Positions 33,042 through 36,670 of a stretch of DNA of 64,000 nt are shown here, piece by piece. Origin of the DNA: Euzebya rosea (GTDB lineage: Bacteria > Actinomycetota > Nitriliruptoria > Euzebyales > Euzebyaceae); contig NZ_PGDQ01000004.1 in assembly GCF_003073135.1 (NCBI RefSeq), positions 174,363-238,362 of the forward strand. Reading direction: 5' to 3'. The translations under genes and the position numbers were made by a program. Position 1 is the first letter of the stretch; each line of letters begins with the position of its first letter. Below the pieces are notes generated by a model, which was given only the letters and a program-made list of their open reading frames with translations, did no database searches and was not told the origin of the DNA.

Positions 33042-33240
33042 GGTTGGCGCGATCGGGGCCTTCGTCGTCCCCGGACGATGATCGGCACGATCGGGTGGGC
33101 CGGTCTGCGCCTTGGTTGGCGCGATCGGGGCCTTCGTCGTCCCCGGACGATGATCGGCACGATTGGGTGGGCCGGTCTGCGCCTTGGTTGGCGCGATCGG
33201 GGCCTGCGTCGTCCCTGCACGATGATCGGCACGATCGTGA
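33042..33240 (+). repeat. Tandem 72-bp repeats, left array (two full copies plus a partial)
   Basis: Units start at 33042, 33114 and 33186, each beginning GGTTGGCGCGATCGGGGCCT. The first two differ at a single base over 72 bases. The third matches for about 52 bases, with a few changes (CTGCGTCGTCCCTGCACG), then diverges. Inverted copies lie on the other side of the DUF559 gene (34217-34350). The rest of the 32988-33321 gap holds nothing recognisable. Confidence 0.9.
33190..33237 (+). repeat. Left arm of a perfect 48-bp inverted repeat
   Basis: Starts GGCGCGATCGGGGCCTGCGT and ends GATCGGCACGATCG; exact reverse complement of 34298-34345. Part of the third left repeat unit, so the copies closest to the gene on each side are identical while more distant ones differ. 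Confidence 0.9.
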
Positions 33241-33321
33241 TGTGTTCGCCGCCGAACCCGAGGGAGGCGGCTGTGGACAAGTCGCTGGACTGACTGCCGG
33301 GGTCAGCTCGACCCTTGGGGC

Positions 33322-34209
33322 ATGCACCACCTCCACGGAGTCGCGACGCTCGCCCAGCTGGCCGCGGCTGGCATCACCAAGGACCGCCTGATCCGGATGC
33401 CGGAGTACGAGCGCTTGGCCAAGGGCCACTACGCGCTCCCCGGTGCCCGACGTGACTTCTGGTTCCATGCGGCGCTCGCCCAGTCAGTCGCCGGTGAGGA
33501 CTCCCGGCTGACCTCTGACTGCGCCCTTCACGCGTATCGGGTGCTCAAGGATCCGCCGGCCCGGCTCCGGGTTGTGGTCCCGGAGGGAAAGGGCAGCCGC
33601 AAGCGGAGGGGGTTCGACGTCCGCCGTTCCAGCCACCTCCCCGAGGGAGTCGTGGTACGGCACGGCGTCCGGTTGGTACCCGTCGCATACGCCATCACCG
33701 ACTACGCCCGAGACGCCTCGGACCGTGGGGTGGCCTTCGCGATCAGCCAAGCGCTCGCACTCCGCCTGACGACCCTCAACGAGATCGGCGCCTTGGTGCA
33801 GGAACGAGGCCAGTTCCCCGGCTCCGCCCGCATGCGCCGCGTCCTGGCCGACTTCGCTGATGCTGAGTCCCACTCTCGCCGGGAACGGTCGTTGCGTCGC
33901 GAGCTCCTGCGCCTGGGCGTCCCGATCGTCGACGGAAGCCATGACATCCGGGACGAACACGGCAGGACGGTCGCCCAAGCAGACGTGGCGATCCCCCTCG
34001 TCCGGCTCAACGCCGAGATCGACGGACCGCACCACTTCGACCCCGCTCAGCAGGACCGGGATCGTCGACGCGACCGCACCCTGAAGGCCCTCGACTGGGA
34101 CGTCGTCCGCTACCTCTACTACGAGATCGACGAGGACGTCGAACGGGTCGCCCGGGAGATTGCCGACCTCTACCACCGGCGTCTTCGGGCCCTCGAGAAG
34201 GCCGCCTGA
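33322..34209 (+). CDS. DUF559 domain protein (Vsr-like nuclease fold, AbiEi-type N-terminus)
   Basis: 295 aa from ATG 33322, no ribosome site. Residues 1-40 (VATLAQLAAAGITKDRLIRM, then LAKGHYALPG) resemble the winged-helix antitoxin-like N-terminus found in AbiEi/DUF559 proteins. Residues about 185-290 form the DUF559 domain: VDGSHDIRDEHGRTVAQADVAI, NAEIDGPHHFDPAQQDRDRRRD (Glu-x-Asp-...-His as in Vsr endonucleases) and LDWDVVRYLYYEI. Catalytic nuclease activity is plausible, not shown. The gene sits alone between inverted repeat arrays, suggesting it is or was part of a mobile or selfish unit. Composition does not stand out from its surroundings. Confidence 0.8.
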   Translation: MHHLHGVATLAQLAAAGITKDRLIRMPEYERLAKGHYALPGARRDFWFHAALAQSVAGEDSRLTSDCALHAYRVLKDPPARLRVVVPEGKGSRKRRGFDVRRSSHLPEGVVVRHGVRLVPVAYAITDYARDASDRGVAFAISQALALRLTTLNEIGALVQERGQFPGSARMRRVLADFADAESHSRRERSLRRELLRLGVPIVDGSHDIRDEHGRTVAQADVAIPLVRLNAEIDGPHHFDPAQQDRDRRRDRTLKALDWDVVRYLYYEIDEDVERVAREIADLYHRRLRALEKAA

Positions 34210-34216
34210 CATCCAT

Positions 34217-34350
34217 GGGGGAGGACGATCGCGCCTGTCGTCGGCCATGGACGATGGAGGCCCCGATCGCGCCGGCCGGGGCGCGGACCGGCCCACCCGA
34301 TCGTGCCGATCATCGTGCAGGGACGACGCAGGCCCCGATCGCGCCGACCG
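34217..34350 (-). repeat. Inverted copies of the 72-bp repeat, right array
   Basis: One well-preserved unit in inverted orientation (about 34278-34350) and a degenerate partial one (34217-34277, recognisable by GGCCCCGATCGCGCCGGCC) follow the DUF559 gene. The inner part of the good unit is identical to the inner left unit. Confidence 0.85.
34298..34345 (-). repeat. Right arm of the 48-bp inverted repeat
   Basis: Begins CGATCGTGCCGATCATCGTG and ends CCCCGATCGCGCC; perfectly complementary to 33190-33237 across about 1.06 kb holding only the DUF559 gene. Confidence 0.9.
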
Positions 34351-34444
34351 GGGCCCGGACTACCCCTGACGCGACGCCGCTGCCCACGTCGCCGGGAGGG
34401 CTCCCGTTCAGCGGGGCCCCGGGGGTCCACTGCCGGGGGAGGGG

Positions 34445-34876: not shown

Positions 34877-36670
34877 ATGACCACGTCCAACCTGCGAAGG
34901 CTGCTTGCCGCCCTCGCCCTGAGCGCGCTGGTACTTGCCGGCTGCTCCAGCTCCGACGAGGGTGACACCGCCGAGGACACCACCGAGGACACGGGCGCCG
35001 AGGCGACCGACGAGGAGGCCACCGACGAGGAGGCCACCGACGAGGAAGAGCCCTCCGACGAGGAGGCCACCGACGAGGAAGAGCCCTCCGACGAGGGTGA
35101 CGAGGCTGCCTCCGGCGACCGCGTCTCCACCTACATCGGCCAGCCCGAGAGCCTGACCACCACCAACAACACCGAGTCCGAGGGCAACGCCGTCCTCTCG
35201 GCGCTCTACACGATGCTCATCGACTACGACTCGGAGAACAACTACGAGCCGGTCATGGCGAACGCCGAGTCGATCGAGACCGAGGACAACCAGACCTACG
35301 TCGTCACCCTCAAGGACGGCTGGACCTTCCACGACGGCACCCCCGTCACCGCTGAGTCCTACGTCAACGCCTGGAACTACGCGGCCTACGGCCCCAACGC
35401 CCAGTCCGTCTCCGGTTTCTTCCTGCCGATCGCCGGCTACGAGGACCTGCAGTGCGGCACGACCACCGACGCCGACGGCGAAGAGGTCTCCGACTGTGAC
35501 GCGTCGCCGCCCGCCGCCGAGGCCATGTCCGGCCTGACCGTGGACTCCGACACGCAGTTCACCATCACGCTGACCGAGGCCGAGCCGTTCTTCGTCACCC
35601 GTCTGGGTTACCCGGCCTACGCGCCGCTGCCCGAGGCCTTCTACGACGACCCCGCCGCCTTCGACCGCGCCCCCATCGGCAACGGTCCCTTCATGATGGC
35701 CGGTGAGTGGGAGGACGACGTCGTCATCAACACCGACGCGTTCCCGGACTACCAGGGCGAGCCCGCCCAGATCCCCGGCATCGAGTTCCGCATCTACGCC
35801 GACGTCAACACCGCCGTGACCGACCTGGTCGCCGGCAACCTCGACATCGTCGACGCCGTGCCGCCGGAACAGTGGGAGAGCACCATCAGCCAGGTCCCGA
35901 ACAGCGACCTGTCCCCGTCCTCCTCCATCAACTACATCGGCTTCCCGAACTACGCCCCGCCGTTCGACGACGCGACGCTCCGCGCCGCGCTGTCCATGGC
36001 GATCGACCGTGAGGCCATCACCGAGGGCATCTTCGGCGGTCTGCGTCAGCCGGCCAACAACATCCTCGCGCCGGTGATCCCGGGCTACGAGGACGTCGTC
36101 TGCGACGAGTGGACCTTCAACCCGGAGCTTGCTGCCGAGAAGTTCGAGGAGTTCGGTGGCGTCGACGCCCTGGGCGACTCGATCGAGATCTGGTTCAACG
36201 AGGGTGGCGGCCACGACCTGTGGATGGACGCCGTCATCACCCAGTGGGAGCAGAACCTGGGCATCCCCGCGTCCAGCGTGAACTTCCAGCAGCTGCCGTT
36301 CGCGGAGTACCTGGAGCTCGCTGACACCCAGCAGTTCACCGGTCCGTTCCGCCTCGGCTGGGGCATGGACTACCCGCACCCGCAGAACTACCTGCAGATC
36401 CTGCTGGAGCTCACCGCTCCCGAGGGCGGCAACAACGCCACCTTCTGGACCAACGACGAGTACTCCAGCCTGATCGCCGAGGCGCTGGCCGTCCCGGACG
36501 TCGAGGAGTCCCTCCCGACGTGGCAGGAGGCCAACGCGGTCGCCTGTTCCGAGGCCCCTGTTGCCCCGATGTTCTACGGGCAGAACAGCTACGCCTGGAA
36601 CGACGGTGTCAGCGGCGTGTCCGTCGACGCCTTCTCCAACCTGGACTACACGGCCCTGACCCTGGGCTAG
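34877..36670 (+). CDS. Peptide ABC transporter substrate-binding lipoprotein
   Basis: 597 aa, SBP_bac_5 (DppA/OppA) family. The lipobox is ALVLAGCSSS (lipidated cysteine at about residue 24). A very acidic linker built of ATDEE/EPSDE repeats occupies residues 30-78. The binding domain has YVVTLKDGWTFHDGTPVTAESYVNAW (read in part), APIGNGPFMM, VDAVPPEQW, RAALSMAIDREAI, AEKFEEFGG and FRLGWGMDYPHPQNYL. AAAGGAAC lies seven bases before ATG 34877. It heads the dpp-type operon, but a strong hairpin separates it from the permeases. Confidence 0.95.
   Translation: MTTSNLRRLLAALALSALVLAGCSSSDEGDTAEDTTEDTGAEATDEEATDEEATDEEEPSDEEATDEEEPSDEGDEAASGDRVSTYIGQPESLTTTNNTESEGNAVLSALYTMLIDYDSENNYEPVMANAESIETEDNQTYVVTLKDGWTFHDGTPVTAESYVNAWNYAAYGPNAQSVSGFFLPIAGYEDLQCGTTTDADGEEVSDCDASPPAAEAMSGLTVDSDTQFTITLTEAEPFFVTRLGYPAYAPLPEAFYDDPAAFDRAPIGNGPFMMAGEWEDDVVINTDAFPDYQGEPAQIPGIEFRIYADVNTAVTDLVAGNLDIVDAVPPEQWESTISQVPNSDLSPSSSINYIGFPNYAPPFDDATLRAALSMAIDREAITEGIFGGLRQPANNILAPVIPGYEDVVCDEWTFNPELAAEKFEEFGGVDALGDSIEIWFNEGGGHDLWMDAVITQWEQNLGIPASSVNFQQLPFAEYLELADTQQFTGPFRLGWGMDYPHPQNYLQILLELTAPEGGNNATFWTNDEYSSLIAEALAVPDVEESLPTWQEANAVACSEAPVAPMFYGQNSYAWNDGVSGVSVDAFSNLDYTALTLG
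35030..35095 (+). repeat. 33-bp tandem repeat encoding the acidic linker
   Basis: Two 33-base units starting at 35030 and 35063 (GAGGCCACCGACGAGGAAGA...) encode the repeated ATDEEEPSDEE; shorter GAGGCCACCGACGAG copies precede them. Likely to vary in copy number by slippage without breaking the frame. Confidence 0.8.

Follow-up and report, generated by a model that had tools for sequence, protein, structure and literature searches.

AbiEi-nuclease fusion genes bracketed by genome-private families of dispersed palindromes in Actinomycetota

Genes encoding a fusion of an AbiEi-type DNA-binding half with an EDxHD/Vsr-type nuclease are often bracketed by a palindrome family that is private to the genome carrying it, with intergenic copies that often lie at the 3' ends of genes. 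The gene described first belongs to a 64,000-nucleotide stretch of the Euzebya rosea genome (here referred to as the window, and its genome as G000). We consider it probable that the gene encodes a solitary nuclease with cognate dispersed palindromes that spread by cut-and-repair, as an analogue of the REP/RAYT system; we infer that the protein recognizes, cuts, and mobilizes these elements.

The trpD/lrp locus and its protein

To the left of the gene lies an array with a 72-bp period (33042-33237; TRF score, 364; 95% matches) consisting of three direct copies 72 bp apart, and to its right lie two inverted copies (34225-34360), confirming the repeats that a first-pass annotation had pointed out around the gene. 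That annotation had ended the right array at 34350 and counted one and a half copies there; the array runs slightly farther, to about 34360, and holds two full copies (Table 1). The left and right arms match inversely at 83% over 136 aligned nucleotides, and the flank-to-flank inverted-repeat score was 165; none of 130 other window pairs exceeded 37. A perfect inverted match of 48 nt pairs the innermost of the left copies with the outer of the right ones (34298-34345), and the innermost right copy has diverged from this pair, which corrects the earlier description of the inner arms as identical. The true unit is a 43-nt imperfect hairpin, and the 72-bp period is this hairpin plus a spacer. Elsewhere in the window, a 15/33-bp tandem repeat (35000-35096) encodes EATDE-type repeats near the N terminus of a lipoprotein-like solute-binding protein.

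Table 1. Features of the nuclease locus, in window coordinates
Feature	Position	Strand	Remark
Palindromic element, left copy 1 (43-nt core)	33050..33092	+	
Palindromic element, left copy 2	33122..33164	+	
Palindromic element, left copy 3 (innermost)	33194..33236	+	33190-33237 identical, over 48 nt, to the inverted outer right copy
CTGTGGACAA motif, between repeats and start codon	33271..33280	+	Contains TCCACAG/CTGTGGA-type motif
Gene for AbiEi-like (residues 1-179) and EDxHD/Vsr-like DUF559 nuclease (residues 183-289) protein	33322..34209	+	295 aa
Palindromic element, right inner copy (diverged)	34227..34269	-	
Palindromic element, right outer copy	34299..34341	-	

All four genomes of the genus that were compared carry the gene at the same trpD/lrp position and always with repeats, in flanking arrays of the same kind, with 72- to 73-bp spacing where measured. 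Repeats and gene belong together, as the first-pass annotation had supposed. What the genus mates show is the opposite of relatives that always lack the repeats, which it had named as an outcome speaking against its reading. A scan of the genome contigs for relatives gave one distant match only. The repeat unit has 47 matches in G000, grouped into about 32 sites, and is present in the genus mates and hardly beyond. In one of these (G003), the orthologue (L071:5202-7368) is split by an IS21-like open reading frame pair with CTCAC at both junctions, and the palindrome arrays persist on both sides of the interrupted gene.

The protein consists of two fused halves, in agreement with the initial reading of a Vsr/DUF559 nuclease with an antitoxin-like N terminus. 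PADLOC AbiEi models match residues 5 to 164 (E value, 6e-14), with a further weak PADLOC match to mREase_II, and Pfam DUF559 matches the C terminus. In the AlphaFold model (mean pLDDT, 91.9), the N-terminal half resembles AbiEi (6y8q; Z score, 13.2) and the C-terminal half resembles the EDxHD homing endonuclease I-Bth0305I (3r3p; Z score, 12.4), with Vsr (1cw0; Z score, 10) as the next best fold for the nuclease domain. Across 23 homologues, S185, D221, E232, D234, H238, and D247 are invariant and E188 is nearly so, and this conservation, which takes in the active-site residues E188, D221, E232, D234, H238, and D247, argues for an active nuclease. The neighbours of the gene are trpD and an Lrp/AsnC-type gene; no DUF1814/AbiEii nucleotidyltransferase toxin lies alongside, and no methylase or defence gene was recognized beside it. 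Phage and plasmid collections gave no match at the sensitivity used, on which ground carriage by a plasmid or phage was rejected. A second nuclease paralogue, 37% identical, lies on contig 5 of G000 (L072); the separate dispersed family that goes with it, ACGATTGT..ACAATCGT, forms arrays with an 82-bp period.

Private palindrome families across the phylum

We gathered homologue loci among relatives and across 246 genomes of the phylum by protein score only and tested their flanks for matching repeats on both sides (score of at least 42, independent of strand). Such repeats were found around 44 of 78 homologues, compared to 1 of 379 matched null window pairs from the same loci, and the sole null positive, in L180, apparently borders a flank array built of that same repeat. 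Many DUF559 genes of this kind are thus framed by repeats, with families that differ between genomes; the first-pass annotation had suggested looking for others framed by the same repeats. About 44% of the homologues have no flank repeat above the threshold; these homologues may have decayed, have repeats on one side only, or fall short of the cutoff. As the null windows are mostly coding, a second control was needed: AbiEi_4 genes with a DUF559 domain are flanked by repeats in four of eight cases, and those without a nuclease domain in none of 18.

Nearly all of the palindrome families are dispersed in their own genomes. When the flank repeats were concatenated and used as queries against sets of 8 and 12 genomes, they matched the source genome only, bar one marginal cross-match (E value, 0.007). 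The number of sites per family ranges from at least 1 (G024 and G074) up to at least 25 or so, and among the sites listed, all families but those of G024 and G074 have further sites in the source genome. For seven of nine families, the sole pair of sites 0.4 to 3 kb apart is the one that brackets the nuclease gene; the exceptions are G202, with one extra pair at that distance, and G124, with none by that count. Repeat similarity tracks protein similarity: each of the five closest repeat pairs belongs to proteins with an identity of at least 60%, and no repeat pair from proteins less than 30% identical reaches a score of 36.

The TCCACAG/CTGTGGA motif occurs upstream of 31 of 79 DUF559 genes, compared to 13 of 925 control windows, and downstream of 1 of 79. 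It stands at a nearly fixed distance from the nuclease genes, for example, at L069, L072, L074, and L172. In the genus of the window, the upstream motif is DnaA-box-like; the full TTRTCCACA is present in only 8 of 79 cases, and we claim no link to DnaA.

Anatomy and turnover of the elements

An alignment of 40 elements from four genomes spans 43 nt with no gaps; the ends are invariant or nearly so, and the middle is variable and evolves fast. The stem is upheld by paired changes: 89.8% of stem cells are paired, and 51 doubly changed cells were counted, compared to 23.9 (standard deviation, 4.2) after shuffling and at most 19 with slid partners. As the elements were gathered by the pattern of their end boxes, this selection imposes the outer helix and much of the constant length, which leaves the inner stem as the informative part. 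Evidence for a hairpin structure comes from covariation; the energies of single-sequence folds are unconvincing (z of about -1). The element matches no known RNA family, and no ordinary T-tailed terminator was found in the window. In the family 1 alignment, read by eye, the feet of the hairpin are CGATCGGGGCC and GGCRCGATC, and CGTC is confined to the variable stem.

In a comparison of G000 with G003 at 11 sites, the boxes are about 0.97 similar throughout, and the interiors of different G000 sites resemble one another more closely (0.72) than do those of one site in the two species (0.62). This is a sign of concerted evolution in G000. There is no such sign in G003, where interior similarity within the genome is 0.50 and two interior types occur. 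The recent homogenization proposed by the first-pass annotation thus has some support genome-wide, from the G000 interiors, and none between the inner arms that it had singled out. Among 14 orthologous sites compared in two genomes of the genus, most are occupied in both, so that turnover is slow, and functional constraint would explain the constant boxes just as well.

The elements are biased toward gene ends. In G109, 14 of 15 elements lie within 11 bp of a stop codon, compared to none of 345 random positions; the bias in G000 is weaker, with 9 of 18 elements within 150 bp, compared to 39 of 387 controls. The dispersed elements of G109 (L197-L211) adjoin stop codons, often at 4 bp or less, and several sit between convergent genes.

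Gain and loss of sites are suggested by comparisons in g61, a different genus of the phylum. Nine relatives cleanly lack an element that in G109 immediately follows a stop codon; one relative has it with an altered interior, and in another its presence is unclear. At a second site, also right after a stop codon (the L200 site; L225-L228), five species have palindromes that are mostly unlike each other, as if the spot had been repeatedly colonized by different palindrome families. Four of those palindromes, picked without regard to DUF559, were then used in a forward search of their own genomes. Three proved to be multicopy families, and all three led to a DUF559 gene with a copy beside it or on both sides (G299, G293, G282, and G281); the fourth had no clear further copy. 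This result, from three families, is strong but not fully blind, as some candidate loci had been fetched, ahead of the test for a gene, on account of copies spaced by about 1 kb.

Proposed cut-and-repair, its rivals, and known systems

AbiEi autoregulators bind inverted-repeat DNA (PMC7319586), and EDxHD enzymes dimerize on targets of nearly 60 bp (PMC3943268), which makes recognition of a two-box palindrome with cutting nearby a natural hypothesis. The AbiEi-type half is predicted to bind the element's inverted boxes, presumably as a dimer, and the EDxHD/Vsr-type half would nick or cut within the hairpin or next to it. The break would be repaired by copying from another element, leading to spread, to multiplication in tandem arrays, and to homogenization, and the enzyme gene would stay put and keep cognate copies around itself, as RAYT genes do with REPs. 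In function, such a system would correspond to REP/RAYT, with an enzyme resembling homing endonucleases in place of a tyrosine transposase. To our knowledge, a pure nuclease has no strand-transfer chemistry, and spread would therefore have to rely on host repair. Points against cut-and-repair include the slow turnover of sites within the genus, the share of homologues (about 44%) with no flank repeat above the threshold, the retention of the repeats around the broken G003 gene, and homogenization that is seen in G000 and not in G003.

The strongest competitor, although an unlikely one in our judgment, is that the protein is a regulator or chromosome organizer whose binding sites, or terminators, are the palindromes, kept by selection, with the nuclease serving some other end. 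Boxes about 97% conserved around drifting interiors, the many sites common to two species, the positions at gene 3' ends in both G109 and G000, and the autoregulatory habit of AbiEi on inverted repeats (PMC7319586) would all suit such a protein. They have to be set against an active site that is invariant or nearly so, the lack of repeats around all 18 AbiEi_4 genes without a nuclease, and the element copies on both sides of the gene, downstream included; moreover, empty sites and differing palindromes at one site in five species suggest gain and loss.

A defence or restriction-like enzyme, with palindromes as self-marking or control sites, seems to us quite improbable. DUF559/MTES_1575 domains are found in defence proteins, and the PADLOC matches to AbiEi and, weakly, to mREase_II point the same way, but the neighbours are trpD and lrp with no recognized methylase or defence gene, the phage and plasmid collections gave no match at the sensitivity used, and the private dispersed repeats would be left unexplained.

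We give next to no credence to the composite mobile element favoured by the first-pass annotation, in which inverted arrays are the ends of a unit that moves the nuclease gene as cargo. The arrays do bracket the gene in inverted orientation, but the gene occupies one fixed locus in four species, no empty trpD/lrp site was seen among the four genomes of the genus, the other element sites of G000 (about 30) are without the nuclease gene, and the whole of G000 has a single pair of sites 0.4 to 3 kb apart. Dispersal of the unit in the manner of a REP, which that annotation had named as telling against its own proposal, is what the 47 matches at about 32 sites amount to. A composite transposon or insertion sequence was rejected, as neither joint movement of the gene and its ends nor empty sites at the locus were found. 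Coincidence, with ordinary dispersed repeats or terminators chancing to lie near the gene, is just as hard to credit: intergenic palindromes are common in these genomes, but flanking in 44 of 78 homologues against 1 of 379 null pairs and 0 of 18 sister genes without the nuclease domain, the single pair of sites that brackets the gene in most families, and the three-for-three forward test all oppose it.

The lifestyle proposed under cut-and-repair is closest to that of REP/BIME elements and their RAYT enzymes (TnpA-REP; REPtron), with short imperfect palindromes in tandem and inverted arrays, many dispersed intergenic copies, and a solitary chromosomal enzyme gene surrounded by cognate copies. 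In neither system does the evidence point to a mobile enzyme gene (for RAYT, PMC8266576). The enzyme here is an AbiEi-EDxHD/Vsr nuclease rather than a Y1 (HUH) tyrosine transposase, and a Y1/RAYT transposase was rejected as the source of the repeats, as PF01797 has no match in G000, compared to matches in 5 of 14 control genomes. The elements also differ from REPs in their length (43 to about 60 nt), in their two inverted terminal boxes, and, by eye in family 1, in having neither GTAG nor CGTC as a tag at the hairpin foot.

The other relatives of the protein share parts of this arrangement. The nuclease fold and the order of the conserved E, D, H, and D residues are those of I-Bth0305I, for which a very long target of the dimer is reported (PMC3943268), whereas here there is no intron or intein, the gene is not copied into targets, the DNA-binding half is AbiEi-type, and the putative targets are many dispersed palindromes. 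The N-terminal fold and the nearby inverted-repeat DNA recall AbiEi antitoxins of type IV toxin-antitoxin systems, which differ in that a nuclease is fused here, there is no toxin partner, and AbiEi_4 genes without a nuclease lack the repeats. Vsr/DUF559 mismatch endonucleases such as Caulobacter VsrA share the C-terminal fold, but in our case no methylase was recognized alongside and an AbiEi-type half is present; dispersed repeats are not mentioned in the passages on VsrA consulted here (PMC12907096). In the open-access papers searched, we found no link of DUF559 or AbiEi fusions with such repeats, in keeping with the earlier suspicion that the context was undescribed, and no description of the arrangement, which resembles REP/RAYT with an unrelated enzyme. 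We set it apart as a new kind because the Y1 transposase, a defining feature of REP/RAYT, is missing; with a lifestyle so REP-like, "variant" would be arguable.

On balance, we lean toward the view that AbiEi-EDxHD nucleases across Actinomycetota make up an extensive class of nuclease-palindrome pairs, in which every nuclease generates and homogenizes a dispersed hairpin family of its own by cut-and-repair. They would constitute a second REP-generating system of independent evolutionary origin and the source of many species-specific intergenic palindromes, including those at gene 3' ends. Genomes such as G000 have dispersed palindromes and no RAYT, and an enzyme family with private, recognizable substrates makes the origin of these palindromes directly testable. 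The pairing also gives a functional lead for AbiEi-DUF559 fusions now annotated as hypothetical or antitoxin proteins, and because each protein is paired with its own repeat family, it offers ready predictions of DNA-binding specificity. If cut-and-repair is true, the REP/RAYT lifestyle of a solitary enzyme with dispersed palindromes would have evolved twice, with unrelated chemistry.
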